Under the pieces are notes generated by a model. It was not told the origin of the DNA. It searched no databases and worked only from the letters and a program-made list of their open reading frames with translations. From Comamonadaceae bacterium (GTDB lineage Bacteria; Pseudomonadota; Gammaproteobacteria; Burkholderiales; Burkholderiaceae_C), in contig CANGPV010000007.1 of the NCBI GenBank assembly GCA_947455935.1, forward strand, positions 1 to 45,504: a stretch of 45,504 nt of DNA, given 5' to 3'. The position numbers and the translations under genes were made by a program. Positions 6,311 through 45,504 of this stretch are shown here, piece after piece. The first letter of the stretch is position 1, and every line of letters starts with the position of its first letter.

Positions 6311-6337
6311 CATCGAAGACTGAAAATATAATTTCGG

Positions 6338-16404: not shown

Positions 16405-16473
16405 CACGCACAGCATCTTGGGCGAGAATCTGCCCTGACCATTATTTCTTGTCCTTCACCTTTTTGAGTAGCC

Positions 16474-17700: not shown

Positions 17701-17702
17701 AT

Positions 17703-18032: not shown

Positions 18033-18046
18033 GGTGGTTTCCAGTC

Positions 18047-19045
18047 TCAAACTTGTCCAGGGACAATTTGCTTTTCGACCCGCACAGCCACATTGGAGCC
18101 ACGCGTGCCGATGTTGACCCCAAAGGTGGGGACGCCGTTGGCCAGGAACTGTGCCTGGTCGGGTTTCTTAAAGAAGAGCAAATCGCCTTCTTTCATATTG
18201 CGAAGATGGTAGAGCGTTGTTTTGATTTCGCCCATCATCACGCGCACATCGAGTTCGGAGTCGCCCACGGCAACGGCCAAATCTTCGCGCCAAATTTTGT
18301 CGGATTCCTCATTGCCTTCGCCACTGGCTACGCGGTTGCGTAGCAGATCACGCAAAGGTTTCAAGGTGGCATAGGGGTAGACCAGATCCATGAAGCCTTT
18401 GCCACCCGATGCCGTGGCTTCGGCATCAAAGCGGCTGAGTACCACCAAGTCGTTTTCGTCGGCAATTTGGGCAAATTGTGGATTGATTTCGGCGCTGACT
18501 TGCTCGCACTCAATGTCCAAAATAGGCGACCAAGCTTCTTTCAGCGAGCGGAAAAACACCGACAAGATGATATGGATGATGCGTGTTTCGGTGGCTGTGA
18601 ACAGTCTGCCAGGAGGCAAATCAGACACGCCTTTGCCAAAGCCGCCAAAAAAACTGTCGAGTGAACTGAACACCACATTCGGGTCGATGATGACGACAGA
18701 ATTGCCTCGCATGGGACTGATGCGAATGGTGTTGACCGACAAAGGTGCTTTGAGAGTTTTGATGTAGTCACCAAACTTCAAAATTTGCACCCGAGTGGGG
18801 TTCACGCGGGGCGTGGTGCGCAGCACTTCGAGCAATCCCAAACGAAACATCCGGATGAACCGCTCGTTGATCATGTCGATGGCAGACACATTCACGCCCA
18901 GGCTGCTGTTTTCGCTGGCCAGGTCGTGTTTGCGCACCCGGACTTTGGTGTTGAAACCGGTGTCCGATTCGAGCGATCCGTCCTTCAAGCCCTCGGCCAA
19001 GGCCGTGAGCTCTTCAGGACTGAGTAAGTTAGGTCGGGTTGCCAT
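18047..19045 (-). CDS. fliM: FliM, flagellar motor switch protein
   Basis: The 332-residue C-ring protein has an N-terminal CheY-binding-like helix, LLSPEELTALAEGL (a variant of the usual LSQDEIDALL). The middle CheC-like domain contains the FFGGFGKG (GGXG) FliG-contact loop near residues 132-139. A C-terminal SpoA domain follows. It binds phospho-CheY at the motor base and reverses rotation. It lies 7 bases after fliL and 14 before fliN. Length is normal. Confidence 0.96.
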   Translation of the reverse strand: MATRPNLLSPEELTALAEGLKDGSLESDTGFNTKVRVRKHDLASENSSLGVNVSAIDMINERFIRMFRLGLLEVLRTTPRVNPTRVQILKFGDYIKTLKAPLSVNTIRISPMRGNSVVIIDPNVVFSSLDSFFGGFGKGVSDLPPGRLFTATETRIIHIILSVFFRSLKEAWSPILDIECEQVSAEINPQFAQIADENDLVVLSRFDAEATASGGKGFMDLVYPYATLKPLRDLLRNRVASGEGNEESDKIWREDLAVAVGDSELDVRVMMGEIKTTLYHLRNMKEGDLLFFKKPDQAQFLANGVPTFGVNIGTRGSNVAVRVEKQIVPGQV

Positions 19046-19663: not shown

Positions 19664-21433
19664 TTAGACAAATGTGTCTAACAACGAACTGTTGCTGTGT
19701 CGCGCTGCGACGCTGGTGTTGCTGTCTTGCGCCTCAACGCCATGTGCGCCGAGTGTGACACGATTGTCTTGTGCGGCTTGACGTTGACCGGATTGACTTG
19801 AGCCACCTTGCGACGACTGACGGTTATCCTGTCCTACGGAAACATATGCATTGTTCATGCCAAGTTCAGCCAAAGCTTCCTTTAGGCGGGTGCTGCCATT
19901 TTGAATCAACTCCTTGGTCAAACCATTGTCGGTCTGGAACTGGGCGCTCAATTGTCCATCACGCATTTCCAATTGCACATCCACCAAGCCCAAGCTGGCG
20001 GGCTTGAGTGCAAATTTCATTTTCCATTCACCGGCATTGAGTTGGTCGTTCATGCGACTGGCCAACTCGGTAGCTAACTTTTGGCTGAGTTTCTCAAAGG
20101 TTTGCGCCATATCTGGGTGGGTTTTCATCGCTTGGGCTGGCGCGGCGTTGTTGCTGGCCATGCTGCGGTTGCTGTTCACGCCGGTGCTGGCCATGCCTTC
20201 ATGCGGTGCCGACGTGCTGTCATCTGCTGCACTCAATTTGTCGAACTCTTCTTTGAGGCGGTCCACATCTTCGGGGCGCAAATCGGCGTCCATCATCGAC
20301 AACACAGCAAGCGTGCTGATATTTTCAGGGGTTTCGCTGACTTGCGCGGTGGCTGCGATGCTGAGATTTTGCAGTGGACTGAGTTGTTTGTCAGCCGCGA
20401 TGTCAGCGGATGCTGAGCTCCATTGCACCTGAAGGCCAATAGGCGTCAAGGGATTGCTGTCTAGTGCATTCAATGAAGTGGTTGCTTGCGCCAAGGCGCT
20501 CATGTCAGGTGCGAGGGGCAGGGCTTGTGCCAGCACCGCGTTGGTGGGCAGGGCTGCGCCGTCAGCGCTGCTCAGGGGTGGTGTGAGGCCGCCGCCCAAG
20601 GGATTCAAGTTAGTCAATCCAGCGTTTTGTGCGGACAGCAGCGTATTTGACAAAGGATTGACAGCATTTGGACTGTTCAGGTTGTTCATGGCCAAAATCT
20701 GTTGCGTGGCGGCAGCCGGCGCGCTTGCGCTGCTGTCTGTACCGGCCGCGTTACCGAGCAATGCCTGAATTTGTGAAGGGTCCAAGCCCATGGCCAGCGC
20801 GAAGTCGGTCAGACTTTTGTCGCTGGTTGCTGGCTCGGCGACAGTGATGATTTCGACGTCCGGGCTGAGCTCAATCGATTGCAGGGCTTGCCCATCAGTG
20901 GCAGCCCAAGCCTTGGTGTGGGCCTGTACAGCGCGTTTGGCCTCAAAGGCCTGGGCGCTGTTGTCCCGTTCGTCATGTATTTGCTTGGTGTGTTCATCCA
21001 CCGAGGTGTCGATGGCGTGGTGTTCTTTGTGTGGGTCTTGCGCTTTGGCCAGACTTGGCTTGGCGGATGGCAGTTGCTTGGCGTAGTGGCCCCCAGCGGT
21101 AAGTCCTGAGCCCATGCCTTGTGAGCCGGGCGCTTTGGCATGTAAATAATGGCCAGGATGGAAAGCTTGGCGCAGGGCTTGCTGTTCAAACATACCACTG
21201 CCCGCAAGGCTGGGTTTGCTGCCCAAAGTGGGCGTGGGCATGCTTTCAGTGGCAATCTCTTGCCGTTGCGGTGACTTCAGTGAGGCAATTTGGTGGCGCA
21301 AGAAGGCCGCGAAATCCTCCCCCGACTGGGTGCCCGAGGATGGGCGCGACAACACCCCGCTGAGGTCACTTACCTCGGTGGCGATTGGGTTGGCGGCTGG
21401 TGACAGGCCCGAATTCAATGCAGATAAGTTCAT
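19664..21433 (-). CDS. fliK: FliK, flagellar hook-length control protein
   Basis: The protein has 589 residues. A long, low-complexity N-terminal region rich in Ala, Ser, Gln and Thr serves as the ruler part. The conserved C-terminal switch domain contains GEWKMKFALKPASLGLVDVQ, LEMRDGQLSAQFQTDN and a following helix (about residues 455-545). It stops hook growth by switching export specificity at FlhB. A ruler of this size suits a long or bulky hook, relevant given the oversized FlgE here. It is the first gene of the leftward fliKLMN group and divergent from flhA. A sigma-54-like element precedes it. Confidence 0.9.
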   Translation of the reverse strand: MNLSALNSGLSPAANPIATEVSDLSGVLSRPSSGTQSGEDFAAFLRHQIASLKSPQRQEIATESMPTPTLGSKPSLAGSGMFEQQALRQAFHPGHYLHAKAPGSQGMGSGLTAGGHYAKQLPSAKPSLAKAQDPHKEHHAIDTSVDEHTKQIHDERDNSAQAFEAKRAVQAHTKAWAATDGQALQSIELSPDVEIITVAEPATSDKSLTDFALAMGLDPSQIQALLGNAAGTDSSASAPAAATQQILAMNNLNSPNAVNPLSNTLLSAQNAGLTNLNPLGGGLTPPLSSADGAALPTNAVLAQALPLAPDMSALAQATTSLNALDSNPLTPIGLQVQWSSASADIAADKQLSPLQNLSIAATAQVSETPENISTLAVLSMMDADLRPEDVDRLKEEFDKLSAADDSTSAPHEGMASTGVNSNRSMASNNAAPAQAMKTHPDMAQTFEKLSQKLATELASRMNDQLNAGEWKMKFALKPASLGLVDVQLEMRDGQLSAQFQTDNGLTKELIQNGSTRLKEALAELGMNNAYVSVGQDNRQSSQGGSSQSGQRQAAQDNRVTLGAHGVEAQDSNTSVAARHSNSSLLDTFV

Positions 21434-30118: not shown

Positions 30119-31234
30119 TCAGGCGGTGCGCAGGTCGTATTTGTTGATCTTCTCGATCAAGGTGGTGCGCTGCAGGTTTAAGAGCTTGGCGGTGCGTGAC
30201 ACATTGCCTTGCGAACGCTCCAAAGCTTGCTCGATGATGTTGCGCTCAATTTCCGCCAAGCGGTCTTTGAGTGACATTCCTTCGGGTGGCAAATGCGGCA
30301 TGCCTTGCGCCAGCATGATGATGCTCTCCACCTCGTTGTCTTGCGGTTCGGGTTGATCCACCAAACTGGCCGATTCGTTCATTTCAGCCAACACCTCGGG
30401 CGGTGGCGTCATGTCTTGCGAGATGCATGGCCCCATTTGCAACAGCATGCTTTCTTGCACCGGCACCAAGCCCTTGGGCAGCAAGCTAGGTGGAATCGAG
30501 CGAATGTCTAACTCTTGGCCCGCATACAAGGTGCTGAAGCGGTCCATCAAATTGGTGAGTTCACGCACATTGCCAGGCCATGCGTAGTTGACCAAAGCAT
30601 TTAAGAAATCAGGGTTGAAGCGAATCACACCGGATTGAGGTGATTTGTAATGCGCAGCGTAAAAATTCAGCAATTCAGGAATGTCTTGGGGGCGTTCGCG
30701 CAAGGGGGGGGTGACCACAGGCAAGACATTAAGCCGATAGTACAAATCTTCACGAAAGCGTCCGGCTTGAATTTCTGCTTCTAAATCACGGTGTGTGGCG
30801 GCAATGACACGAACATCGATGGGAATTTGCCGCGTCGACCCCACGGGGTCGATCACCCGTTCTTGCAACACACGCAGCAATTTAACCTGCATGTCCAAGG
30901 ACATGTCGCCAATTTCATCCAAAAAGATGGTGCCGCCGTGGGCTAACTCGAAGCGGCCAATGCGATCGGCCACCGCTCCCGTGAAGGAGCCTTTGCGGTG
31001 ACCAAAGAGTTCACTTTCCAATAACTCTTTGGGGATAGCCGAGCAATTTATAGGTACAAAAGTTCCACCCAAGCGGTCAGATTGCTCATGCAAAGCCCTT
31101 GCGATCAACTCTTTGCCCGTGCCACTTTCTCCTGTGATCAAGACAGTGGCGGCAGAGTTGGCGATGGTGGCGATCAGGCGGCGCAGGGCTTGCGCGATCG
31201 GGCTGGTACCGATGAAATGGGAGGGTTGCTTCAT
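30119..31234 (-). CDS. FleQ-like sigma-54 activator lacking an N-terminal sensory domain
   Basis: The protein has 371 residues from ATG 31234 (MKQPSHFIGTSP). It starts directly with the AAA+ domain: Walker A GESGTGKE (residues 35-42), the sigma-54 contact loop GSFTGA (82-87, GAFTGA in most), Walker B GTIFLDEIGD (101-110) and the sensor region REDLYYRLNVLP. After a linker of about 90 residues comes a Fis-type helix-turn-helix (NVSRTAKLLNLQRTTLIEK), very like FleQ and FlrA. No receiver or FleQ N-domain is present. It is the likely activator of the sigma-54 promoters at flgB, flhA, flgA and perhaps fliK. FlhG, which inhibits FleQ in Pseudomonas, is also encoded here. Confidence 0.9.
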   Translation of the reverse strand: MKQPSHFIGTSPIAQALRRLIATIANSAATVLITGESGTGKELIARALHEQSDRLGGTFVPINCSAIPKELLESELFGHRKGSFTGAVADRIGRFELAHGGTIFLDEIGDMSLDMQVKLLRVLQERVIDPVGSTRQIPIDVRVIAATHRDLEAEIQAGRFREDLYYRLNVLPVVTPPLRERPQDIPELLNFYAAHYKSPQSGVIRFNPDFLNALVNYAWPGNVRELTNLMDRFSTLYAGQELDIRSIPPSLLPKGLVPVQESMLLQMGPCISQDMTPPPEVLAEMNESASLVDQPEPQDNEVESIIMLAQGMPHLPPEGMSLKDRLAEIERNIIEQALERSQGNVSRTAKLLNLQRTTLIEKINKYDLRTA

Positions 31235-31261
31235 GCTTGGCAAGATTGTGACGCATGGGGT

Positions 31262-31310: not shown

Positions 31311-31337
31311 TAAAGAACCGCCACTGTGCGCCGATTC
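31311..31337 (+). promoter_or_regulatory. sigma-28 promoter for the flgP-flgT group
   Basis: TAAA (31311-31314), exactly 15 bases, then GCCGATTC (31330-31337) match the FliA consensus with one or two differences. It is 30 bases upstream of the flgP-like start codon. It indicates late flagellar expression of this gene group. Confidence 0.78.
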
Positions 31338-31367
31338 ATAGCTTGTACCCATTCAGAGGAACTTACC

Positions 31368-31910
31368 ATGATGTACCGAATTGCTCTCGCTGCTGCCGCA
31401 CTGTCAGGTTTGACGGCTTGCGAAACCATTCATAGCTTGTCTGCCCCCGTGCAGGCACCTGTGGTGGCCATTGCTGCTCCAGCAGGTGTGGCTTCGCCCA
31501 AAGCTGCGCCAACGGTAGCCCCCGAACCCGCACCTGTTTCCATGATCACCCCGATGATGGAAAAGCGTGAAACCTTTGTGGCCACTGGCTATGCCGTCAT
31601 CAGCATCCAAAATCACAAAAACCCTGCACAACAGCGTTTGTTGGCGATCCGTGCTTCCAAGCTCGACGCTTACCGCGCTTTGACCGAACAGGTCTATGGT
31701 CAACAAATGGATGCCAGCACCACCGTGGCTGATATGACAGTGATGAACGACACCTTCCGTGCCCGTGTGGAAGGCGTGATCTACGGCGCCAATTTGGTGA
31801 GCATTACCCCCATCGGTGACGACACCTATGAAACCACTTTGTCGTTAGACCGCAATGCGGTGCAAGACTTGCGTACCCTGTACCTGACCCAAATCGCTGC
31901 TCGCCGTTAA
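31368..31910 (+). CDS. flgP: LPP20-type lipoprotein, FlgP-like
   Basis: The 180-residue protein has a lipoprotein signal; the lipobox is LTAC with Cys18. An Ala/Pro spacer follows, then an LPP20 domain (VATGYAVISIQNHKNPAQQRLLAIRASKLDAYRALTEQVYG and TFRARVEGVIYGANLVSITP). FlgP-type LPP20 lipoproteins form outer-membrane-associated rings of the flagellar motor in Vibrio and Campylobacter. The start is at the first ATG of ATGATG, with AGAGGA upstream. The flgT-like gene follows after 26 bases. The flgP name rests on fold and context, so it is moderately sure. Confidence 0.78.
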   Translation: MMYRIALAAAALSGLTACETIHSLSAPVQAPVVAIAAPAGVASPKAAPTVAPEPAPVSMITPMMEKRETFVATGYAVISIQNHKNPAQQRLLAIRASKLDAYRALTEQVYGQQMDASTTVADMTVMNDTFRARVEGVIYGANLVSITPIGDDTYETTLSLDRNAVQDLRTLYLTQIAARR

Positions 31911-31936: not shown

Positions 31937-33013
31937 ATGCGCACACGTTCATTCGCTCTAAGCTTGACATCGCTGCTGCTGGCCAGCGCATCGCTCACCT
32001 CGGTGTGCGCACAGTCGCTGAGCGCCGAAGAGCGCTTGGACGCCATTCGTCAGTCGCTGGTACAGCGCTCGCTCGAAGGTCCAACCCAGGTGCGTTCCAC
32101 CCAATGGATCGATGGCAATGGCGCATTGCGCGAGAGCAACAGCTTTGTCACCGGCATGGAAGTGCGCGGTGTGCGCATCCTGGCCTATGGCCGCGACATG
32201 GACAAACAGCCCAGTGCCAGCGGCATGCAAATGGACGGCAAAACCGCTTTGGCACCTACCTGTGTGTCCCCCGCCGTGGATGGCGCGGTCTGGCATCAAC
32301 TGAATTGGGATGTGCGTTACGGTGCACCCATGTCTGCGGGTCGTCGCTTTGAAGCACAGCAAATCGTCCAGCAATTTCGCCAACTTGCTTTCAGTGCTTC
32401 TCACCACGCCAAGTCTTGGCGAGTGAGCGAGCGCAAACTTCCTGCTGACGGCTACGAGCAATTGCTGGTCGGCCAAGGCGAGCAACATGTGCCTTGGGTG
32501 CTGCGCCTCACCGTTGCGCCCAGCATAGACTCTTATGTGGTGACGAATATTTACGACGTGACCTGGGAGTTGATCGGTCGCGGCGCAGGCCAAGACCCCG
32601 CCTTCCGTGGCACCCAACAAATCAGCGTCGATATACCTACCACGGTGGGTATCGAGTCCAAGCCTTTGCCGCCTGTGGTGGTCGCGCAAATCCAAGCCAG
32701 CCTGCAAAGCTTTCAAGAAGGCATGGAAAAAGTTTTGTCTTGCAAAGTGCCGCAGTTTCAGGTGGTGAATGTGTATGCCGGTGGCAGCGTGCGTATTGCT
32801 GGCGGTGCGGCCAGTGGCATACGCGTAGGCAGCCAAATGGTGCTGGCTGATCGCCACAAATTGCCGCTGCGCGCCCTTGAGCCCCGCGCTTTGGAGCGCC
32901 TTGCCATCGCTGAGGTCGTATCGGTGAGCGATTATTATGCGGAGCTCAAGCTCACCGCAGGAACCAAATTTCCCGCCAATGCGCAATGGGTTGCCATTCC
33001 GCATACACCTTGA
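31937..33013 (+). CDS. flgT: FlgT-like exported flagellar assembly protein
   Basis: The 358-residue secreted protein has a clear signal peptide (cleavage likely after SVCA near residue 25). The middle part has a strand-rich region (VLRLTVAPSIDSYVVTNIYDVTWELIG). The C-terminal domain (about 273-356) has VYAGGSVRIAGGAASGIRVGSQMVL, matching the glycine-rich barrel seen in Vibrio FlgT, an H-ring protein of the motor. It follows a FlgP-like lipoprotein gene and precedes a LysM gene in a sigma-28 driven group. The similarity was judged by eye, so other export-linked roles remain possible. Confidence 0.6.
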   Translation: MRTRSFALSLTSLLLASASLTSVCAQSLSAEERLDAIRQSLVQRSLEGPTQVRSTQWIDGNGALRESNSFVTGMEVRGVRILAYGRDMDKQPSASGMQMDGKTALAPTCVSPAVDGAVWHQLNWDVRYGAPMSAGRRFEAQQIVQQFRQLAFSASHHAKSWRVSERKLPADGYEQLLVGQGEQHVPWVLRLTVAPSIDSYVVTNIYDVTWELIGRGAGQDPAFRGTQQISVDIPTTVGIESKPLPPVVVAQIQASLQSFQEGMEKVLSCKVPQFQVVNVYAGGSVRIAGGAASGIRVGSQMVLADRHKLPLRALEPRALERLAIAEVVSVSDYYAELKLTAGTKFPANAQWVAIPHTP

Positions 33014-33032: not shown

Positions 33033-33662
33033 ATGTTTGCCATCCATCAAAACCTTGTCTGCCGTGTGCTTGTGTGCTGCGGCGTGATGGCCTCGGTCGG
33101 TGCCACCGAAGCTCCCCGTCAAGCGCCCCTGGAGTTGCCCAAAGAAATGGTGCCAGCGGACGCGGCTCCTGCCAAAAAACCTTTGGCTAAGCCCATCAGA
33201 CTCGCCAAGGCTGATATACCGCCTGAGTCCACCGGCGTTGCCGTGGCCACGCCTGTCGCTCCCGCGTCCAAGCCTGTGGTCGAAGACATGGCAGCACCTG
33301 TGTGGAAAACCCACACCGTGGTGGCAGGGGACACCTTGGACAAATTGGTTCAAAAATACTATGCCAACAGCCCCCTCAAAGCGGATGTTTTGCGTGACTG
33401 GGTGGTGGTCAACAACCCCAAAGCCTTTACCAAGGCCAACAGCAAAAAACTCCAACCCGGTACGGTGTTGAATTTGGCTGACCAAGCCGAGTTGATCCAA
33501 AAACTCATGCCCAGCAGTGCCGCCAAAGCCAGCATCCAAGTGCCCAACAGTCCTCCTGCCAATCCCTTGCCCGCTCCTGTGGGTGGCGCGGCCTCTCACC
33601 AAGCGGGCAATGTGCAAGCGCTGGTTGAACCCAATAAGCGCAATTGGGTACGCTACCCCTGA
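33033..33662 (+). CDS. exported LysM-domain protein
   Basis: The 209-residue protein reads from ATG 33033 (CAGGAG upstream). A signal peptide covers residues 1-24 or so, followed by a Pro/Ala/Lys linker. A single LysM-like domain spans about 93-153 (THTVVAGDTLDKLVQKYY ... VVVNNPKAFTKANSKKLQPGTVLNL), reminiscent of the FimV LysM. The tail is Pro-rich. It should bind peptidoglycan in the periplasm. Being in the flgP-flgT group, it may help anchor the motor to the wall, but this is inference. Confidence 0.78.
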   Translation: MFAIHQNLVCRVLVCCGVMASVGATEAPRQAPLELPKEMVPADAAPAKKPLAKPIRLAKADIPPESTGVAVATPVAPASKPVVEDMAAPVWKTHTVVAGDTLDKLVQKYYANSPLKADVLRDWVVVNNPKAFTKANSKKLQPGTVLNLADQAELIQKLMPSSAAKASIQVPNSPPANPLPAPVGGAASHQAGNVQALVEPNKRNWVRYP

Positions 33663-33672
33663 TCACTCACCG

Positions 33673-34821
33673 ATGCTCGGTCCTGAACTTGTCAGTGCTG
33701 CCAATCGGATAGGGCCTGTCCAATTTGAAAACCGTACCGTTTGGGTACAAACCCCCGTGGCTCAGCAACTGGGTTTGCGCGATGGTCAAATCGTGCAAGC
33801 CACGGCTGAAGTTCGTGATCAACGGGTGCGTTTGTGGCTCAAAGATTTCTTTTTCGAATTGCCCAACGGCTGGGTGCTCAAAGACGGCGATAAGCCGTTT
33901 TTGCGCGTCGGCCAAAATGCGGGTAGCTGGGGATTTTTGATTCAAGCTTTCCCCAATGGCCAAGCCCCTGTGGCCACCGCGACACCGGTGAATCAGCTGT
34001 TTGGGCTGCACAACACCCCTTCGCCACTGCCTAGCGATGTAGCGCAGCTCGAAACCCAGCCCAGCCGCTTGGGTATGTTGTTGATGCAGCCGCCGGGCTT
34101 TGCCACCTTCTCCAAATTACTCAACGCCATGGCGCAAGGCGGTTGGAGCGACCAAACCGAGATAGGGCCATGGTTACAGCGCTTGTTGCAGCAACGCAAT
34201 TCTTTGGCGCAAATGAACCCCAGCATGTTGCGCAAAGCGGTGCTGGGGCAGGCACGCAGCATAGAGAGCATCTTGGTTCAGGGCCAAGAAGCGGCAGATG
34301 ACCCCAAGACCTTGCTGAAGAAACTATTGGGTTTGCTGAGCGAAGAGTCGGTGGAGTCGGTTGACAAAGACAACCTGCGCCAACTGCAAGACGCCAGTGC
34401 TGAATTTGAAGCCGCCCAAGCGCAAAGCGCTCAAAAAATGTTGCAAGGTGAGCTGTCCTTGCACGTGATCTTGCCCTTTGTAGATGCTGATCCGGTGGAT
34501 TTGCATTTCCAACGCCCACCGCGCAAAAAAGGCCAAGAAGAGCCGCCTTTGAGCGTCGACATCCATTCACGCAGCCGTGTCTTGGGCGAGGTTTGGCTCA
34601 ATACCCAAATCTCCAAAGGCAATGATGTGGATTTGGTGATGTGGGCCTTGCGAGGTGAGGTGGCTAATTTGGCTAAACAACGCTCGGGCGAGTTGGGTCT
34701 TGAGCTGGGCTCGGCAGGTTTGCAGCTGCAGTCGTTTCAAATTTTCAATGCCCCGCGTCCGCTGGCGCGTGTGGGTGAGTCCTCGGGCACGCGTGGCTCG
34801 GTCATCGACTTAAGGGCTTAA
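33673..34821 (+). CDS. second FliK-like protein paired with FhlB
   Basis: The 382-residue protein reads from ATG 33673; a longer frame overlaps the LysM gene. The N-terminal part has a compact OB-like region (VQFENRTVWVQTPVAQQLGLRDGQIVQATAEV). The C-terminal 110 residues (about 256-365) resemble the FliK/Flg_hook domain: GELSLHVILPFVDADPVDLHFQ, then GEVWLNTQISKGNDVDLVMW, and a helix ending in LELGSAGLQLQSFQIFN. It is followed after 4 bases by an FlhB C-terminal homologue. Such FliK-like/FhlB pairs are known in other bacteria. It may act in export switching or be a separate secreted factor. Confidence 0.65.
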   Translation: MLGPELVSAANRIGPVQFENRTVWVQTPVAQQLGLRDGQIVQATAEVRDQRVRLWLKDFFFELPNGWVLKDGDKPFLRVGQNAGSWGFLIQAFPNGQAPVATATPVNQLFGLHNTPSPLPSDVAQLETQPSRLGMLLMQPPGFATFSKLLNAMAQGGWSDQTEIGPWLQRLLQQRNSLAQMNPSMLRKAVLGQARSIESILVQGQEAADDPKTLLKKLLGLLSEESVESVDKDNLRQLQDASAEFEAAQAQSAQKMLQGELSLHVILPFVDADPVDLHFQRPPRKKGQEEPPLSVDIHSRSRVLGEVWLNTQISKGNDVDLVMWALRGEVANLAKQRSGELGLELGSAGLQLQSFQIFNAPRPLARVGESSGTRGSVIDLRA

Positions 34822-36820: not shown

Positions 36821-36836
36821 TGACGTTTTAGCGTCA
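36821..36836. promoter_or_regulatory. 16-bp palindrome between flgA start and its sigma-54 element
   Basis: TGACG-N6-CGTCA lies between the flgA start and the flgA -12 element, in the divergent flgA / LysM-muramidase gap. Its location suggests an operator or a 5'-leader structure. No matching site was found at the other flagellar promoters by eye. Confidence 0.35.
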
Positions 36837-38044
36837 TGTTTACACCCGATGCAAATTTGATGCCAACCGAATTGCAACCCAGAGTCGAACGCACAATGAA
36901 CTTCAATGTTGATCCCAAAGCACTCGTTAAAACAACGTTTGTCAATCCAAATGACGCTAACGCTTCCACGCGTGCTACCAGCTTGGCTTTGCCGGGCAGG
37001 GTGGGTTTTGCCCAAACCTTGTCACAGCTACAACAACGATCGAGTGTCAATTCCTCGACCATTTTGAATCCGCAGGTACCCAGCGTGGCGGTTCAAGACG
37101 GCGACACTTTGAGCAATATCGTCAAAGATCACATGGCGCAGCTGGGTCGCCCTGTCTCTAATAACGAGGCCATGCGCTTGTCTCAAGACGTGGCCCAGGC
37201 CAATGGCATCAGCAACCCCGACCGCATTTACCCTGGCCAAAGGCTTAACTTGAGCGTGCTGAGCCAATCTCCCCAAGCTGTTCCCCCCAATGTGTTGACT
37301 CAGCAAGCCTTGCAAACCAAACGTTTGCAGGCCATGCCCCAGATTCCCGTGCTGGCAGGGCAAAACCCGATTCTGCAAAAGACCTTGGACCGCGCCGTAG
37401 AGAAAGGCTATATCCCAGCAGAAGAAAAACAGCAGGTTTACCAAAAGATATTAGGCATGGCGCGTAACTACCAGTTTGCGCCTGACGACTTTGCCCGTTT
37501 GACCTTGATGGAAAGCGACGGCATGAACCCCAAGGCCAGCAACAACCGCTGCCACGGCATCATCCAGTTCTGTGACGGCCCCGACCGAGGCGCAGCCGCG
37601 GCAGGTTTTGCCAGCAACCCCAAAGCCATTTTGGGACACAGCGTGTTGCAGCAATTGGACATGGTTGACAAATACTTTGACCACAACGGCTTGAAAACCA
37701 TGGGGCCAACCAATCTGGACGATTTGTACCTGACGGTGCTCACCCCCGCGGCCCGACGCGAAAAAGCACCCAATGCCGACCTGAATATCGCTGGCACCCA
37801 AGCGCAAAAGCTCTACGTCAACCGCGACCCCAACACTTTCATTACCCGCAATTCCATTGTCCAAGGCCTGCACCAGCACGCCAACGAGCGACTAGGGCTG
37901 TACGAAACCGCCAAAGCCCAAGCACAAAAGCTGGCGCAAACCCTCACCCGCAGCAGCCCACCGGTGCAGGTGGCCAACAACCAGCCCCAGCGTGCGCAGG
38001 TGTTACGCGTAGGCGCTTATTTGAATCAGGACTATTTGCGGTGA
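36836..38044 (+). CDS. LysM plus lytic-transglycosylase-like flagellar protein
   Basis: The frame has 402 codons. The true start may be MNFNVD at 36896, since the first bases overlap the flgA promoter. No signal peptide is seen, as expected for a protein exported through the flagellar system or acting after leakage. A LysM domain spans about 84-140 (QDGDTLSNIVKDHM ... GISNPDRIYPGQRLNL). A lysozyme-like part starts near residue 222 with LMESDGMNPKASNN and HGIIQF, which recall the Glu-Ser ... Gly-Leu-Met-Gln motifs of soluble lytic transglycosylases, then runs to about 350. It could open the wall for the rod. The match is by eye only. Confidence 0.7.
   Translation: MFTPDANLMPTELQPRVERTMNFNVDPKALVKTTFVNPNDANASTRATSLALPGRVGFAQTLSQLQQRSSVNSSTILNPQVPSVAVQDGDTLSNIVKDHMAQLGRPVSNNEAMRLSQDVAQANGISNPDRIYPGQRLNLSVLSQSPQAVPPNVLTQQALQTKRLQAMPQIPVLAGQNPILQKTLDRAVEKGYIPAEEKQQVYQKILGMARNYQFAPDDFARLTLMESDGMNPKASNNRCHGIIQFCDGPDRGAAAAGFASNPKAILGHSVLQQLDMVDKYFDHNGLKTMGPTNLDDLYLTVLTPAARREKAPNADLNIAGTQAQKLYVNRDPNTFITRNSIVQGLHQHANERLGLYETAKAQAQKLAQTLTRSSPPVQVANNQPQRAQVLRVGAYLNQDYLR
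36850..36865 (-). promoter_or_regulatory. sigma-54 promoter for flgA
   Basis: On the minus strand TGGCAT-N5-TTGCA matches the -24/-12 consensus except the last base of the -24 block. It lies 44-56 bases upstream of the flgA start, inside the 5' part of the opposite-strand LysM frame. Confidence 0.7.
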
Positions 38045-38150: not shown

Positions 38151-38226
38151 AGGTCAGTCTGAGTTTTTGTGTTTTTCAACCCAAGCGTCGTGAAAACGGC
38201 GATGTAAACAAGGCAAGGAGGGGATG

Positions 38227-38610
38227 ATGGATTTATTTACCACCGCATTTGGCATCCACGAGCGTGCCTTGGGCGTTCGCAGCCAGCGCATGGAAGTGTT
38301 GGCGCGCAATATTGCCAACGCAGACACACCCAATTACAAAGCTGAAGAGCTGGACTTCAAAGCCATGCTCAAAGAAACCCAGCGTGAGTACATCGCTGCC
38401 ACGCATGAAAAGCATTTCGCGGCCCTTGAGGAGCAACAAGATAACGGCATGCGCTACCGCGTTCCTTTCAACAGTTCGTTTGACGGTAACACCGTCGAGA
38501 TCAACGTTGAACAGGCCAATTTTGGTAAAGCAGCTGCCGACTACCAAACCACATTGAGCTTTTTAGAAAACCGCATCAGCGGTCTTCGCAAAGCCATCAA
38601 GGGGGAGTGA
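38227..38610 (+). CDS. flgB: FlgB, proximal rod protein
   Basis: The 127-residue rod protein reads from the second ATG of ATGATG (38227); the AGGAGGGG ribosome site fits it better than the ATG at 38224. It has the rod-hook N-terminal motif VLARNIANADTPNYKAEELDF and the C-terminal helix ADYQTTLSFLENRISGLRKAIKG. It is the first gene of the rod/hook operon behind a sigma-54 promoter. Size is normal. Confidence 0.95.
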   Translation: MDLFTTAFGIHERALGVRSQRMEVLARNIANADTPNYKAEELDFKAMLKETQREYIAATHEKHFAALEEQQDNGMRYRVPFNSSFDGNTVEINVEQANFGKAAADYQTTLSFLENRISGLRKAIKGE

Positions 38611-38616
38611 TAAGCC

Positions 38617-39045
38617 ATGAGAACACTTGATTCTGTCTTCGGCATCGCCGCCACCGCCTTGAATGCACAAACGGTGCGCATGAATACCACCGCCTCCAAT
38701 TTGGCCAACGCGACCACCGTCGCCAAATCCGAAGAAGAAGCTTTTCGCGGCAAACGCACGGTGTTCAAAGCCTTGCTCAAAGACGAAATGACCAACGGCG
38801 GTTTCCCTTACAAGGGCGGCGTCAAAGTTGACCAAGTGGTGGATGACCCCACACCGATTCGATCCCTTTATGACCCGGGCAACCCTTCTGCTGACGCCAA
38901 TGGCTTTGTGTATTTGTCTAACGTCAACGAAATGCAGGAAATGATCGAAATGATGGCTGCTTCGCGGTCCTATCAAAACAACGTCGAGGTGGTCAATACC
39001 GCCAAGCAACTCATGATGCGCACGCTCGACATCACCAAATCTTGA
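38617..39045 (+). CDS. flgC: FlgC, proximal rod protein
   Basis: The 142-residue rod component has the conserved N-terminal MNTTASNLANATTVAKSEEEAFRGK and the C-terminal YQNNVEVVNTAKQLMMRTLDI. It lies 6 bases after flgB. The central part has the FlgC-typical YDPGNPSADANGFVYLSNVN. No anomaly. Confidence 0.96.
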   Translation: MRTLDSVFGIAATALNAQTVRMNTTASNLANATTVAKSEEEAFRGKRTVFKALLKDEMTNGGFPYKGGVKVDQVVDDPTPIRSLYDPGNPSADANGFVYLSNVNEMQEMIEMMAASRSYQNNVEVVNTAKQLMMRTLDITKS

Positions 39046-39062: not shown

Positions 39063-39770
39063 ATGACCACCACTGCCACCTCCAAAGCCCCTTTGCCCAG
39101 CGGCATCGTCAGCTATGAAGATTACGTTGCGAAAAATAAAACCAAGGGAACAGGTAGCACCTCAGGCGCTATGGACCAAGGTGCATTTTTGACCTTGTTC
39201 ACCACCCAGCTGAAAAACCAAAACCCCTTGGACCCCGTGAAGAACGAGGCCTTTGTGGCGCAATTGGCGCAGTTCTCGCAATTGGAAGCCACGACCTCCA
39301 TGAAAACCAGTTTGGAGAGCATGGTGCAAAGCATGCAAGGCGACAAGATGCTCGCTGGCGCTTCCATGATTGGTCGCAAAGTGGCAGTGCCCAATGCACC
39401 TGCCATGTTGTTGGGTGGCCAGCCGGTGCAAGCCAGTGTGGATTTGCCCAACGGCGCTGACGGTGTGCAACTGCAGGTATTTGACAGCAAAGGTCAAGTA
39501 GTTCGTAAAACCATTTTTGGTGCACAGCCCTCAGGCTCGATGAAGTTGGCCTGGGACGGCATGAGCGACAGCGGCGCCTCCATGCCCGATGGCAGCTACA
39601 CCATGCAAGTGCTGGCCAGTTCGCAAGGTAAGGCCTTGCAACCCGTGGTCAATATGTTGTCCACAGTGCGCAGCGTTAGCAATGCAGGAACCGGTGACAA
39701 CACCTGGCTGCTCGAAGTTGACGGTGGCAAAAGCGTCAGCTTGGCAGACGTTAAACAAATCGCTTACTAA
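39063..39770 (+). CDS. flgD: FlgD, hook capping protein
   Basis: The 235-residue hook scaffold has the conserved N-terminal LTLFTTQLKNQNPLDPVKN followed by EAFVAQLAQFSQLEATTSM, the export and capping region. The C-terminal beta domains contain LDP-type Gly-rich turns (WDGMSDSGASMPDGSYTM). It caps the growing hook to insert FlgE subunits; here it must handle an oversized FlgE. Its own length is ordinary. Confidence 0.96.
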   Translation: MTTTATSKAPLPSGIVSYEDYVAKNKTKGTGSTSGAMDQGAFLTLFTTQLKNQNPLDPVKNEAFVAQLAQFSQLEATTSMKTSLESMVQSMQGDKMLAGASMIGRKVAVPNAPAMLLGGQPVQASVDLPNGADGVQLQVFDSKGQVVRKTIFGAQPSGSMKLAWDGMSDSGASMPDGSYTMQVLASSQGKALQPVVNMLSTVRSVSNAGTGDNTWLLEVDGGKSVSLADVKQIAY

Positions 39771-39805: not shown

Positions 39806-42800
39806 ATGTCCTTTTTTACCTCACTCACCGGTTTGAATGCAGCCACTGCACAGTTGGGCGTGACATCCAACAACATTGCCAACGCGAGTACCGTGGGTTT
39901 CAAGCGCAGTCGCGCCGACTTCGGCGACATTTTTGCGACATCGCCTTTGCAAAAAGCCACCTCCGCGGTCGGTCAAGGTGTGTCATTGAAGCGCGTCACC
40001 CAAGAGTTTGGTCAGGGCAATATGAACTTCTCGTCCAATACCTTGGACTTGGCCATTTCTGGTGACGGTTTCTTCCCATTGAAATCTGCTGACGGATTTC
40101 AGGACATCTTTACGCGTAACGGCTCGTTCATGATGAACGATCAGTACAACGTGGTGAACTCTGCAGGCCAGCGTTTGATGGCGGCGTCAGTTGACTCGAC
40201 CGGTAAAGCCAATTTGAGCGATATGAATGTGTTGACCATTCCGCAAAAAACCACCGGTATGGCCAAAGAAACATCGTTGGTGCAACTGGGTTTGAACTTT
40301 CCTGCCGATGCGCAGGTGGTCACCAAGGCCTTCAGCCGCAATGACCCTTCTACTTACAACAAGAGCACCGCGTTGACGGTGTATGACAAGGGTGGTAACG
40401 GTTACTTGGCCACGGTCTATTACGCCAAAACACAAAACGCCAGCCAAGCTGACCCCAACAACAAATGGCAAACCTATGTGTATGTGGGTGACACGCTGGT
40501 TGCGGCTGCCTTGCAACAAGCAACCGATGCGACCACCGGCGAAAAAATGTATGTCAACAAATACGGCCAACTCAAACCCGAAAGCGAAGTGGGCGATTTG
40601 TTGGTGAACTCTAAAACCCAAAAATTCTCACTTAACCAACTCACCGACAAGCGTTCTTCCGAACCTGCCACCGTCACAGGCGGTTTGGCACCTCACTTGA
40701 GTACTTTGGAAGGGATCAACTTCAAGAACTTGCAATCGAGCCAACTGAACAATTTGTTCAGCATGGATGTCGATGGTTCGGGGATGCCAGTGCAAATCGG
40801 TCTGGACAACTTAGCGGGTAAAAACTTGACTTTGTCAGGGACTGAGATTGCCAAAGAATTAACCAACGTCATCAACCGAAAATTTGGTGATGAGCGTTTC
40901 TTCAACTTTGCAGGCCAACAAAACTTCTCTATTTCCGCCACCAATGCCGATGGTCAGCTGACTGAGAACCGAACCATTCAGTTGGATTCGACCGACATGA
41001 CGTATGAGCAGGTGGTGACCAAGATCAATAACCAGCTCAATGGCAGCAGCGATGTGTTGTCGAATGTTGCATTCAGTTCCACGCCCACCGCCAGTGAATT
41101 CAAGGGCTATAGCTTCACACTGGGTACAGGTCTCAATGCTGTCACTGTGTCGGGTGAACTCACTTTAAAAAACCCGCTGAGCACCAAGCCCATGGAAGAT
41201 TTGGTCTCCAATATGCAAGACCGCATCCAAGCGGATCTGGTTTCACGTTTTGGTTACAGCTCAGACGCGGCTGCTAATGTCACGGTGAATGTCCAAAATG
41301 GCAATGAAATTCGCTTGACGAATGGCGATGGAACTGAAGTTTCAGGCCTGAACCTGACCACGGTCAGCTCGGGCTCGCCCGTGACTGTGAACAGCGCCTT
41401 CAAATCGGGCACCATCGCTGCGGGTGTTGCAGGTACATACACCAAGCTCAATATGAAAATTGGTGCTACCCAAATCACCAATTTAGATATTTCCAAAATG
41501 GATTCAACCAGCTTGGACAGCTTTGCCAAAGAATTGAAGAGCGGTATTCAAACCGAACTCGGCCTGGCGGGTTGGTCCAAATTTCATACCGATTTGGTCG
41601 ATGTGAAAGTCACTGGGGCAGGTTTCACCATCACCGATGGCACTGGCCATCAAATCACACAATTTAACGTCACAAGCGCGGCCACGCCCTTAACACCCAT
41701 CCAAGGAACTCCCGCAGGATCGGCTTTGGCTTTGGACAATGTGGCTTTTGCTGACGCACCATTTGGCAATGAAAACCTCCTCACGCATTTCAAGGACTTC
41801 ACAGTCAATTTGACAACGCCAGATGGTTCAAAGTTGACCAAAACCATTTCGTTTTCCAATATCTTGGCGTTGGATGCCTTGGTGCAACCCTCGCCCAAGC
41901 TGGCCAAATTCAATCCCAATGATCCTGTGAATGGTCCCGACCAGCTCAAGGCCTTGGCGAAATATATGGAAGATCAGGCGAATGCTTTAACAGGGTGGAC
42001 CAATTTGTCGGGCAACCCCGTGGCAGGTGTTTACCCCACGGTGTCGCGTGCAGCTTCGGATCCCTTGACCTTGGCATGGAAGGGCGACACCAATAGCTTT
42101 ACTTTGGAAACAGGCCCCAACAGCGCTACTTATATTTCCAATCTTTCCATGAATTTGAATACCGCTGACCTCAACTTTGGTAAGTTGCTAACCAAAGGCA
42201 GCTCGGTCAATATCGTTGCACCTACCTTGGATTCGGGTGGCGCTGTGACGGCAGGTGGCTCATTGACACTTTCTAACGTCAGCTTCCCACAGTCAACCAA
42301 AGCGGTGGGCGATGAATTTCAGTCGTTCAACTTCACCTTGGGTGGCAAGACGTTTCCTTCCACAGCTGGCACTTACATCACCATTGACAAGTTGACCTTG
42401 AGCAGCTCGCCCATCACCGATTTGGCTGTGGCTTTGCAAGCCAAAATTCGCGCAGCCTTGAAGGCCAGCGATGCCAATCTGTATGACGACACACGCATAA
42501 CCAAAGTTAGCGTGTCCGTGGTCAATGGTAAAGACCTGAAGATCACTGATGCGGGTGGTGCAGACATCACAGGACTCACCTTGATTCCCAAAGCCGGCGC
42601 TGCGGTGTCGGTAGGCGCTAAAACATTCAGCATTCCGCCTTTGGGTAATTCGGTGACCGCGTCCTACGACCCCGTGTCCCAGAAGTTCAGTTTCACACCG
42701 CCTTTGGGTTCCGGAATCACCGTGGCTTTGTCGGGCATCAATAACCAGCTCGGTATCACCTCACCCGTGACACAAGATTCAGGCAGTGATGCTTTGAGCA

Positions 42801-44092
42801 CCTCGGGTGCACCGGCCATCACCAACAACTACATCCGTCCGCTCAAGTTGCAACGCTATGGCATGAAGGTGGAGTACGACACGGTGAATGAAAAATTTGT
42901 GTTCAAGTCAGGCACCACAGGGGACACTTCAAGCATCCAAATCACCAATCCCAGCACCTATGCCTCGGATCACTTTGGCATGCTGTCGGATGGCAACTAT
43001 GAAGTAAAAACCTCTTCCACAGCGGTGCGTGGTATTGCTTCTCAGCCTGCGGTGATGACAGGTTCACCTTTAGGTATCAACGCCAACAACAACTTCAGCG
43101 TTAACTTGACGAATAACAAATTCGTCGTCTCGGTCGACGACGTTAAAGGTACTGTGTATCTAGAACCCAAAGATACCTACACGATTGACAGCTTTGTATT
43201 GGCGCTGCAAAACGGTATCAACCGCTTAGCAGGCCCGCCTGACCAAAATGGTTTGACAGGTTCCACGGTTTCAGGTGTGAAAGTCTCTTATGACACTGCC
43301 ACCAACAGCTTAAAGTTCACTACAGGCACAGCAACTACCAACTCCTTTATCAAGGTGTCGGGCGACAGCCAGTGGGGCTTGGCCAACGTGGACGGTGGTC
43401 GTGGTGCCACATCCACTTGGATTAAACCCACGCAATACACCCAAGTGGTTAACGGCGTGGCGGTGGCACAGTACATCGACGAATTCGGCAAAGAAACTTT
43501 CAGCCCTGATGGCTTTAAATCCTTACCTGAATGGTCACCCATCTTCTTAGAAAAAGGCGAACTGACCTTTGACACCGGCGGTAACTTGGTGTCACCCAAA
43601 CAAGGTTCGCAGTTGGACACGGTGTACCTGCCAGACGGTAAGGGTGCTTTGACCATCAACATCAACTACTCCAAGTCAACCCAGTTCTCCTCGCCCTATG
43701 CGGTGTTGTCACAGTCGCAAGACGGTGCACCCGAAGGTGATTTGGTGGGCTTGTCACTCGGTGACGATGGCTTGGTGAACGCTTCTTACTCCAACGGCTC
43801 GCAAAAATCGCTGGGCAAGGTGGTGTTGGTGAACTTCACCAACCCCACAGGTTTGCGCCAGATTGGTGACACCAGTTACTACAAATCAGCATCCTCTGGC
43901 ACACCTAAGTACGGTGAGGCCGGTTCTGCAGGTTTTGGAACTGTACGTTCGGGCGCGACTGAGCGTGCCAACGTGGACTTGACGCAAGAGTTGGTGGACT
44001 TGATCACCGAACAGCGTAACTTCCAGGCCAATGCCAAGGCGATTGAGACCAGCACCACGCTGACCCAATCTATTATTCAAATCAGAGCGTAA
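39806..44092 (+). CDS. flgE: FlgE, giant hook protein (1428 aa)
   Basis: Typical FlgE proteins are about 400-450 residues; this single intact frame has 1428. The N-terminal D0/D1 part (MSFFTSLTGLNAATAQLGVTSNNIANASTVGFKRSRADF ... LDLAISGDGFF, residues 1-90) and the C-terminal part (GDDGLVNASYSNGSQKSLGKVVLVNF ... VDLTQELVDLITEQRNFQANAKAIETSTTLTQSIIQIRA) are canonical. Between them lie about 1000 extra residues, rich in Thr, Ser, Gly and Asn, that would form outer hook domains. Several segments repeat the same helix-plus-strand pattern (see the separate repeat entry). The flanking genes and the FlgE ends confirm identity. There is no frame disruption. Confidence 0.96.
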   Translation: MSFFTSLTGLNAATAQLGVTSNNIANASTVGFKRSRADFGDIFATSPLQKATSAVGQGVSLKRVTQEFGQGNMNFSSNTLDLAISGDGFFPLKSADGFQDIFTRNGSFMMNDQYNVVNSAGQRLMAASVDSTGKANLSDMNVLTIPQKTTGMAKETSLVQLGLNFPADAQVVTKAFSRNDPSTYNKSTALTVYDKGGNGYLATVYYAKTQNASQADPNNKWQTYVYVGDTLVAAALQQATDATTGEKMYVNKYGQLKPESEVGDLLVNSKTQKFSLNQLTDKRSSEPATVTGGLAPHLSTLEGINFKNLQSSQLNNLFSMDVDGSGMPVQIGLDNLAGKNLTLSGTEIAKELTNVINRKFGDERFFNFAGQQNFSISATNADGQLTENRTIQLDSTDMTYEQVVTKINNQLNGSSDVLSNVAFSSTPTASEFKGYSFTLGTGLNAVTVSGELTLKNPLSTKPMEDLVSNMQDRIQADLVSRFGYSSDAAANVTVNVQNGNEIRLTNGDGTEVSGLNLTTVSSGSPVTVNSAFKSGTIAAGVAGTYTKLNMKIGATQITNLDISKMDSTSLDSFAKELKSGIQTELGLAGWSKFHTDLVDVKVTGAGFTITDGTGHQITQFNVTSAATPLTPIQGTPAGSALALDNVAFADAPFGNENLLTHFKDFTVNLTTPDGSKLTKTISFSNILALDALVQPSPKLAKFNPNDPVNGPDQLKALAKYMEDQANALTGWTNLSGNPVAGVYPTVSRAASDPLTLAWKGDTNSFTLETGPNSATYISNLSMNLNTADLNFGKLLTKGSSVNIVAPTLDSGGAVTAGGSLTLSNVSFPQSTKAVGDEFQSFNFTLGGKTFPSTAGTYITIDKLTLSSSPITDLAVALQAKIRAALKASDANLYDDTRITKVSVSVVNGKDLKITDAGGADITGLTLIPKAGAAVSVGAKTFSIPPLGNSVTASYDPVSQKFSFTPPLGSGITVALSGINNQLGITSPVTQDSGSDALSTSGAPAITNNYIRPLKLQRYGMKVEYDTVNEKFVFKSGTTGDTSSIQITNPSTYASDHFGMLSDGNYEVKTSSTAVRGIASQPAVMTGSPLGINANNNFSVNLTNNKFVVSVDDVKGTVYLEPKDTYTIDSFVLALQNGINRLAGPPDQNGLTGSTVSGVKVSYDTATNSLKFTTGTATTNSFIKVSGDSQWGLANVDGGRGATSTWIKPTQYTQVVNGVAVAQYIDEFGKETFSPDGFKSLPEWSPIFLEKGELTFDTGGNLVSPKQGSQLDTVYLPDGKGALTININYSKSTQFSSPYAVLSQSQDGAPEGDLVGLSLGDDGLVNASYSNGSQKSLGKVVLVNFTNPTGLRQIGDTSYYKSASSGTPKYGEAGSAGFGTVRSGATERANVDLTQELVDLITEQRNFQANAKAIETSTTLTQSIIQIRA
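41199..43376 (+). repeat. diverged modular repeats inside flgE
   Basis: At least three protein segments share a pattern of one amphipathic helix followed by strands of the form V-x-V-x-x-x-x-G-x-x-I/L-x-I-T-D/N-x-x-G-x-x-I/V. These lie near residues 465-520 (helix MQDRIQADLVSRFG, then VTVNVQNGNEIRLTNGDG), 571-625 (AKELKSGIQTELGLAG, then VDVKVTGAGFTITDGTG) and 871-928 (VALQAKIRAALKASD, then VSVSVVNGKDLKITDAGG). A fourth, weaker copy is near 1128-1190. They recall flagellin IN-type modules. Sequence identity is low, so they are old duplications rather than recent tandem copies. Confidence 0.6.
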
Positions 44093-44114: not shown

Positions 44115-44882
44115 ATGGATCGCTTAGCCTTTAACGCCTCTGCTGCAATCACTGAAATGCGTTTGGCTCGTCAGGCCTTGGCCAATGAAATGGCCAACAT
44201 GACGACGACGGGCTTTAAGCGTTCCTACGAAGTCTCGCTCAAGGCATTTAAAGCCGAAGGCGAGGGCTTTGACTCTAACTACCAACCCCAAGCCCAGCAC
44301 ATGGACTTCATCAAATTGGCCCCTGGCCCCTTGATGGCAACCGGCCGCGACTTGGATATTTTGATGAATGACCAAACCGTCTTGGGCGTGCAAGCACCCA
44401 ACGGTGAAATGGCCTTTACCCGCCGTGGCGACTTGCAACTCAATATCAACGGCGTGCTGCAAACCGGCAATGGTCATCCGGTCATGGGGGATAACCAGTC
44501 ACCGATTACCGTTCCCCCGGGCTTTAAGGCGACCATCACCCAAGACGGCGGTGTGTATATCCATGATCCCAACCAGCCCGGAATTCAGGCTGAGACCCAA
44601 ATTGGCCAGCTTTTGCTGAGGGATGCCAGCAAAACCCCCTTGACCCGCCGAGAAGATGGCCTGTTTCGGGCGCACGATAAACCGTCAGGCGCGGATTTTG
44701 CTTCAGGTCCTGTGAAGCCGTCATTAACGACACAGGCTCTCGAGGGCAGCAATGTCAGCCCCACCGAGGCCATGGTCAAACTGATTGAGCAGTCGCGCAT
44801 GTTTGAACAGCAGGTCCGTATGGTGAAAGCCAGCCACGAAAACGACCAGTCCGGTTCTTCCATGCTCAAGCTGTCTAGCTGA
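44115..44882 (+). CDS. flgF: FlgF, proximal rod protein
   Basis: The 255-residue rod protein starts MDRLAFNASAAITEMRLARQALANEMANMTTTGFKRSYEV, the FlgF/FlgG-type N-terminus. The middle domain has ATGRDLDILMNDQTVLGVQAPNGEMAFTRRGDLQLNINGVLQTGNG. The C-terminal part is PTEAMVKLIEQSRMFEQQVRMVKASHEND. It lies 22 bases after flgE and is followed at once by a hairpin with a T-run. Confidence 0.95.
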   Translation: MDRLAFNASAAITEMRLARQALANEMANMTTTGFKRSYEVSLKAFKAEGEGFDSNYQPQAQHMDFIKLAPGPLMATGRDLDILMNDQTVLGVQAPNGEMAFTRRGDLQLNINGVLQTGNGHPVMGDNQSPITVPPGFKATITQDGGVYIHDPNQPGIQAETQIGQLLLRDASKTPLTRREDGLFRAHDKPSGADFASGPVKPSLTTQALEGSNVSPTEAMVKLIEQSRMFEQQVRMVKASHENDQSGSSMLKLSS

Positions 44883-44887
44883 TGACA

Positions 44888-44909
44888 GGCGCCAAGGCGC
44901 TGATTTTTT
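44888..44909 (+). terminator. possible intrinsic terminator or attenuator between flgF and flgG
   Basis: A short GC-rich stem (GGCGC-CAAG-GCGCT, 44888-44901) is followed by GA and six T (44904-44909). It starts 5 bases after the flgF stop and 20 bases before the flgG start region. The stem is only 5 base pairs, so it would probably give partial termination and reduced flgG and downstream expression. Confidence 0.4.
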
Positions 44910-44928
44910 GAAGAACAGGGGTTAAGCG

Positions 44929-45504
44929 ATGGATGCAGCATTATGGGTTTCCAAGACCGGCTTGGACGCGCAGCAAACGCGCATGAACGTCATCTCGAAT
45001 AACTTATCCAACGTTTCCACGACGGGTTTTAAGCGTGACCGCGCGGTATTTGAAGACTTGCTCTACCAAAACATCCGCCAAGCGGGTGGACAAAGCACGG
45101 CCAACACCCAGTCCCCTACCGGCTTGATGCTGGGCACGGGTACCAAGGTCGTGGCCACAGAAAAACTGCATATCCAAGGCAATTTGATCAACAGCCAAAA
45201 CCCTTTGGATGTGGCCATCATGGGTGACGGTTTTTTCCAAATCCAGCAACAAGACGGTACCGTGGCCTATAGCCGCGATGGTGCTTTTAAACTGTCGGGA
45301 ACCGGACAATTAGTTACTTCTACCGGTTTTTTGCTAGAACCCAATATCACTATTCCCAACAACGCTTCGGCTTTGACGATTGGCCGCGACGGCACCGTCT
45401 CGGTTGAACTCGTAGCAGGCGGGGGTCAACAGGTCTTGGGTCAAATTCAGATCGCCAAGTTCATCAATCCAAGTGGTTTGAAGCCCTTGGGTAACAACTT
45501 GATG
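44929..45504 (+). CDS. flgG: FlgG, distal rod protein (cut by window end)
   Basis: The first 192 codons are visible and open to the right end. The start MDAALWVSKTGLDAQQTRMNVISNNLSNVSTTGFKRDRAVF is canonical, followed by the FlgG-specific stretch YQNIRQAGGQSTANTQSPTGLMLGTGTKV, which separates FlgG from hook proteins. The next part, NPLDVAIMGDGFFQIQQQDGTVAYSRDG, is normal. The distal rod made of FlgG connects to the FlgE hook. The remaining residues and the downstream flgH-flgI-flgJ are outside the window. Confidence 0.97.
   Translation, partial: MDAALWVSKTGLDAQQTRMNVISNNLSNVSTTGFKRDRAVFEDLLYQNIRQAGGQSTANTQSPTGLMLGTGTKVVATEKLHIQGNLINSQNPLDVAIMGDGFFQIQQQDGTVAYSRDGAFKLSGTGQLVTSTGFLLEPNITIPNNASALTIGRDGTVSVELVAGGGQQVLGQIQIAKFINPSGLKPLGNNLM

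Follow-up and report, generated by a model that had tools for sequence, protein, structure and literature searches.

Flagellar hook proteins with extra outer domains have been described in a few bacteria. In Campylobacter jejuni, FlgE has 865 amino acids (aa), carries the domains D3 and D4 inserted in D2, and is ranked among the longest (PMC5069557). Extra domains borne on D2 are reported to widen the hook in both C. jejuni and Caulobacter crescentus and to strengthen it in C. jejuni (PMC5069557, PMC5097172); without D3-D4, C. jejuni is described as very poorly motile, with more than 90% of cells carrying short flagellar stubs (PMC5097172). A Salmonella FlgE given the C. jejuni D3-D4 was reported to be exported and assembled, with motile cells and a bulkier hook, and the same account shows that hypervariable outer domains of FlgE were already known (PMC5069557). 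Giant flagellins of more than 1000 aa are also described, whose filaments are at least 30 nm wide (PMC6248924). Searches of the open-licence literature in PMC listed no title on a FlgE longer than 1000 aa, on a giant FlgK or on the hook of Limnohabitans. Here we describe a stretch of 45,504 nucleotides from a Comamonadaceae bacterium (the window), which encodes a FlgE of 1428 aa with a large insert in D2. By analogy with the described hooks, this insert would form the outer shell of a thick, stiff hook and evolve as an exchangeable surface cassette, a reading to which we give a probability of roughly 0.55.

The gene occupies positions 39806..44092 on the plus strand, downstream of flgD, which is identified by its Pfam domains, and upstream of frames for flgF and flgG. 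It is one ATG-started open frame of 1428 codons with zero internal stops. Four Pfam models match above their cut-offs: Flg_bb_rod (residues 5-33), FlgE/F/G D1 (83-151), FlgE_D2 (best stretch 167-290) and Flg_bbr_C (1382-1426). The hook-basal body subfamily model TIGR03506 scores 269.5 bits against a cut-off of 70.25. The FlgE-specific NCBIfam models were built for 402-719 positions; the best of them, NF004238, reaches 361.7 against a cut-off of 400, the match being split in two by the insert. The closest PDB relatives are FlgE chains, and the protein lacks any cysteine. Residues 1-150 (40255 being the last position, from 39806, plus strand) hold the N-terminal D0/D1 and align with ordinary FlgE, while residues 1246-1428 (43541..44089, plus strand), by Pfam and alignment, comprise the rest of D2, D1 and D0 and are 100% identical in the related locus L032. 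On this sequence evidence the protein is a true FlgE with a predicted hook core of D0, D1 and D2, and the intact frame with canonical FlgE ends, noted in a preliminary description, is confirmed.

Aligned with five ordinary FlgE proteins (400-438 aa) from sister genera, the giant protein departs at about residue 229 and rejoins them at about 1245, inside D2 at both points, although by Pfam the first part of D2 extends past the break to about 290. The D2 insert and hypervariable segment thus spans residues ~231-1245 (40496..43540, plus strand), as delimited by the alignment break and by identity and 4-fold divergence. Judged from the alignment break and the published description, this is the same place that holds D3/D4 in C. 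jejuni (PMC5069557). The expectation that the additional domains would point outward accords with this position, since D2 faces outward and bears the extra domains of both C. jejuni and C. crescentus. The locus shares with C. jejuni the D2 insertion, a conserved core, the expectation of a wider hook and FlgP in the motor, but the insert measures ~386 residues there and ~1000 here, where it contains repeated modules, and in the genus of the window FlgK and flagellin are enlarged as well. A phmmer comparison with C. jejuni FlgE (5jxl) gave residues 1296-1427 only as its best stretch and no sequence match for the insert, which is therefore not classed with the Campylobacter type and would only work alike. 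C. crescentus FlgE (591 aa) also has an extra outer domain in D2 and a hook given as 245 A wide (PMC5069557), but its extra domain, D3, is single and smaller. Giant flagellins, in which the surface is described as enlarged by internal domain duplication and a further insert (PMC6248924), offer the same principle in the filament rather than the hook; no giant FlgE is mentioned in the passages that describe them.

The insert holds repeated modules of about 100 residues, all read on the plus strand. Modules B (residues 430-523, 41093..41374), C (543-627, 41432..41686) and F (836-930, 42311..42595) are related to one another by hhalign (97.1% for B with C, 99.3% for B with F, 97.7% for C with F) and by fold models, and C shows a weak fold likeness to D2 of flagellin and FliD. 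Module D (~650-784, 41753..42157) is a weaker relative of B and C (hhalign 46-66%, fold model). Module H (1104-1188, 43115..43369) is a conserved last outer domain, and residues 1081-1245 around it remain 75-93% identical within the clade of the window. Beyond the FlgE and axial models, a Pfam and NCBIfam scan of the insert found no domain. Fold searches of the modules gave zero matches at E <= 0.001 against PDB and none in a viral library, and sequence-pattern searches of viral contigs matched no stretch. The rows from VIA-align have modest Z and indicate axial domains of flagella and tail domains of phages; C. jejuni FlgE is absent from the module fold-search rows shown, which do not exclude folds shared with D3/D4. 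A profile of the FlgE modules matches one giant flagellin (L131) at 1.2e-5 and other giant flagellins weakly. An iterated version of the profile was not used as evidence, because it drifted to take in module H and had been trained on the very sequences that it scored.

We infer that the genus of the window and its close relatives is Limnohabitans. Of 84 genomes of this genus, 61 match FlgE, and 36 of these have the N-terminal and the C-terminal match within a single frame. These 36 complete frames all measure 939-1574 codons, the smallest and largest giving 931 and 1572 aa from the ATG; of the other 25 matches, those inspected are cut by contig ends or, in G015, broken. The locus in G015 (L010/L038) is otherwise similar, but a single TGA and a single TAA interrupt the matched part of its flgE. 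A shared break point in flgE was considered for G012, G054, G067, G070 and G074, whose contigs end 477-493 codons in, and was rejected as the end sequences differ. Enlarged FlgE extends to near kin under the genus codes g78, g111 and g36 and to one member of a fourth, g83. Ordinary members of the family are far smaller. FlgE matched in 55 of 70 sampled family genomes, and the N-to-C span was computed in 50, leaving aside the giants G000 and G027 and three genomes (G086, G093, G127) with one end unlisted or on another contig, and without counting second copies. This span is 387-551 residues in 49 genomes and 793 in G160, with a median of 425 over the 50, which bears out the estimate of a middle some 1000 residues above the usual size. 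The further idea of a specialised hook surface is supported by the place of the insert in outward-facing D2, whereas nothing in the analysis speaks for adhesion or resistance to cleavage; the enlargement itself is general in the genus and not peculiar to the host.

At the level of the order, 81 of 120 genomes match, and among the matches listed two more frames exceed 900 codons, 937 in G468 and 970 in G486, while genus g146 has frames of 681-711 (span of 671 residues in G397). The G468 frame belongs to a giant-type flg cluster (L139, contig C35, ~6103-8913, 67.7% G+C) whose FlgE ends are 68-71% identical; G468, under another family code, also has an ordinary 453-codon FlgE frame elsewhere in its genome. 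The L139 cluster either arrived by transfer, as a second flagellar system, or is contamination. The G486 frame (L140, contig C7) falls under a third family code, and its genus mates have 496-539. Long frames in G368, G172, G094, G237 and G185 were rejected as enlarged FlgE, being upstream overhang on proteins of 404-438 aa.

The middle of flgE has a history that differs from that of its flanks. Between the window and L032, codons 1-230 and 1246-1428 encode 100% identical protein with 4-fold differences of 0.33, and neighbouring genes are 93-99% identical (0.27-0.48); codons 401-600 are 50% identical (0.65) and codons 601-900 only 37% (0.70). Pairwise comparison of 39 complete loci (741 pairs, 731 with at least 100 aligned neighbour codons) repeats the raised divergence of the middle in most of the closest pairs. 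For G001/G028, the values are 97% and 0.22 in the neighbours, 99% and 0.28 in the ends, and 71% and 0.51 in the middle (Fisher p 1e-16). The middle is retained in L104/L105 (99%, 0.18) and likewise in L092/L093. Since it has diverged in most close pairs and is retained in others, it changes in jumps.

Trees point the same way for G028, with groups chosen after the pairwise divergence had been seen, among genomes with large contigs. In the flanks, G028 belongs with G001, G027, G003 and G024, and its grouping with G029 and G006 is rejected (approximately unbiased (AU) test, p 1.2e-13). In the flgE middle, it belongs with G029 and G006, and grouping with G001 and G027 is rejected (AU test, p 7.3e-4). 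Along the locus, the identity of G028 switches within flgE, returns to 84-96% with G001, and switches a second time in flgK; between the switches, from 415100 to 418700, it is at least 90% in all full comparison windows but one. A second tree conflict, in L039 (p 3.1e-5 and 6.9e-5), occurs in a bin that has two contigs with flgE and may be a chimera. For the window itself, middle trees that keep it with L032 are not rejected (p 0.050 and 0.23); a foreign origin of its middle is not proven by tree, and the support for it is the higher 4-fold divergence. It appears that the outer part of flgE has been swapped between strains.

The hook-associated protein FlgK is enlarged in the same genus. A profile search matched 67 of the 84 genomes, 45 of them over the cut-off, and among the 29 genomes whose FlgE and FlgK are both taken as complete the FlgK frames measure 931-1521 codons (971-1518 aa in the 20 with an ATG set). 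Frames in the family have a median of 664.5 and a range of 551-1199 (52 genomes), where the values of 1199 and 846 are overhang on spans of 657 and 623. In the sister genome G065, FlgK (1258 aa) has FlgK_D1 at 93-323 and its C-terminal segment at 1217-1257, so it is in the middle that this protein, too, has grown. G038 and G068 additionally carry a 527-codon FlgK frame matched along its full length, and hold either a second, ordinary flagellar system or contamination. The lengths of FlgE and FlgK are correlated (Spearman 0.46, p 0.012, 29 genomes, uncorrected for kinship).

Exchange seems to extend to FlgK. In flgK-middle trees, G028 again groups with G029 and G006, and grouping with G001 and G027 is rejected (p 3.7e-5). 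Across genomes, the identities of the FlgE and FlgK middles are associated beyond flank identity (partial r 0.47 over 20 genomes and 0.57 over 14; permutation p 2e-4), in a kind of permutation test that is liberal. The pattern is broken by G003/G024, whose FlgE middles are mutually nearest and whose FlgK middles are not.

Flagellin was matched in 62 of the 84 genomes. The longest frame measures 1106-1793 codons in 23 of the 29 genomes, those with one recorded, often alongside frames of ~640-775; in the family, flagellin frames are mostly 280-600 codons among the matches listed, with some longer open frames unresolved. The comparison with giant flagellins made in the preliminary description was therefore apt, as genomes of the genus encode them. 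Genus frames of ~310 codons, which we take to be FlgL, are not enlarged. The longest flagellin frame listed for the genus (1793 codons) is in L119 (G011, C1). Downstream of flagellin in L114 is an 851-codon frame (minus strand, ~16447-18999) with short repeats of the type 'QI..L' at its ends, and in L118 and L130 (G025, G008) an extra flagellin-like frame starting MIINTNMDAI lies divergent beside an ordinary flagellin.

The window also contains genes for the motor, and its plus-strand frames follow the order flgB-C-D-E-F-G, which is conserved in relatives. The flgB and flgC frames (38224..39045) and those of flgF and flgG (44115..45504, flgG running past the window end) are named from order and sequence, and the hook cap flgD (39063..39770, Pfam FlgD, FlgD_ig and tudor) is of ordinary size at 235 aa. 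Upstream, also on the plus strand, 31326..31910 encodes a FlgP-like outer-membrane lipoprotein (Pfam LPP20; solved FlgP 8z5n, E 1.2e-15). The adjoining gene at 31937..33013 may encode FlgT, judging from its genome distribution and its profile, whose two best PDB matches are 8z5n_5 (E 0.14) and 3w1e (E 0.15), both chains of Flagella basal-body protein; domain searches of its product found no family. This FlgT-like gene is present in 70 of the 84 genus genomes and in only 3 of the 70 family genomes, G000, G027 and G160, which are the three with enlarged FlgE there. A flgP relative adjoins it in 14 of 15 relatives, the fifteenth stretch starting at a contig end. Rings of FlgP and FlgT are reported to be linked to higher-torque polar motors (PMC7990780). 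These parts of such motors, like the hypervariable middle with its own history and the enlarged FlgK, go beyond the preliminary description.

Further genes encode FlhA (FHIPEP), a sigma factor, MotA, MotB, and an SRP54-type GTPase followed by a MinD/ParA-type ATPase, presumably FlhF and FlhG from their order. A frame adjoining motB (30119-31243, minus strand) reads by eye as a sigma-54-dependent activator, which suggests an RpoN-controlled polar flagellum. Two frames resemble FliK: one of 589 aa (19664-21433, minus strand, Flg_hook 7.9e-19) and one of 434 aa (33517-34821, plus strand, sub-threshold Flg_hook 0.0018). After the 434-aa frame comes one of 106 aa resembling, by eye, the C-terminal part of FlhB. 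A 402-aa LysM protein without other family (36836-38044, plus strand) adjoins flgA.

How might such a hook work? D0, D1 and D2 would make an ordinary hook core, and the insert of ~1000 residues, partly of repeated modules, would form extra outer layers that widen the hook and add contacts between subunits. The joint strengthened in this way could transmit to a heavy filament the torque that an H-ring polar motor delivers, and the larger FlgK would serve to fit the junction to the hook. With variation confined to the surface, recombination through the conserved ends of the gene could replace the insert and give strain-specific hooks. As a rough guess, the hook would be ~34-37 nm (341-368 A) wide, a value obtained by fitting the squared radii of three hooks in the literature (180, 245 and 280 A) and extending the fit to 1428 residues. 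A more ambitious proposal, which we regard as tentative and rather doubtful, is that hook, junction and filament are all giant in the flagella of Limnohabitans, that strains exchange the outer parts of FlgE and of FlgK as matched cassettes, and that the surfaces of hook and junction co-evolve as strain-specific 'hook types' on a fixed mechanical core. Matched exchange would make sense if the junction must fit.

Several points weigh against a thick, stiff hook. Firstly, the thickness, the stiffness and the powerful motor are all inferred by analogy. Secondly, extra domains are not always tolerated, a graft of D3 only having been reported to abolish assembly (PMC5069557), and the description of four type strains of Limnohabitans gives them as non-motile (PMC3031073). 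Thirdly, the length of FlgE does not correlate with that of the longest flagellin (-0.07, n=23), and searches of the window's own bin found neither FlgK nor flagellin, so the point about their enlargement rests on relatives. Finally, the likeness of the module fold to flagellin D2 is weak, the identity of FlgT hangs on matches at E 0.14, and kinship alone could explain the association of FlgP/FlgT-like genes with enlarged FlgE.

The strongest rival, with a lesser though appreciable chance of being right, is that the insert is mainly a variable surface selected by phages or protist grazers, its mechanics being incidental and its cassettes recombining as with flagellin. The conserved ends with a middle 37-50% identical even to the nearest relative, its raised 4-fold divergence and the tree conflict showing intragenic exchange in flgE all fit this, and Limnohabitans is reported to suffer heavy grazing and to be susceptible to viral infection (PMC3591437). 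However, variation alone needs no 1000 residues, and FlgP/FlgT-like genes accompany the size. This explanation is compatible with an outer shell on a stiff hook, and the two are not exclusive. Growth by duplication and drift, the outer domains being functionless and tolerated for want of any contact with the core, is improbable: the modules are duplicates and the complete genus frames vary widely in length, but all 36 are large, FlgK and flagellin are enlarged too, synthesis is costly, and parts such as residues 1081-1245 stay conserved. A role of the insert as an adhesin, or the presence of an enzyme in it, is very improbable. The insert is large and surface-exposed, and a proteolytic flagellin has been reported from Limnohabitans sp. 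(PMC7643111), but the domain scan and fold rows described above lead to axial and phage tail domains instead. An assembly or gene-fusion artefact is ruled out, although the genome of the host is a bin broken into 151 contigs, because the flgE region has no tandem DNA repeat (one 25-nt two-copy family only) and, contrary to the concern that two genes had been merged and relatives would be of normal length, the same architecture recurs in many genomes, with 1427 aa and identical ends in L032 and on contigs of 2.6-2.9 Mb in G001, G027, G028 and G029.

Hooks have been treated as conserved joints of ~400-residue subunits with few larger exceptions. Here, a common freshwater genus has hook proteins of up to 1572 aa, with giant FlgK and flagellin alongside, that vary between close relatives by recombination. 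The genus thus offers a natural series of hooks, graded in size on one core, and such a series would allow a direct test of the way in which motor torque is related to the diameter and stiffness of the hook, and of whether phages or grazers exert selection on hook surfaces.

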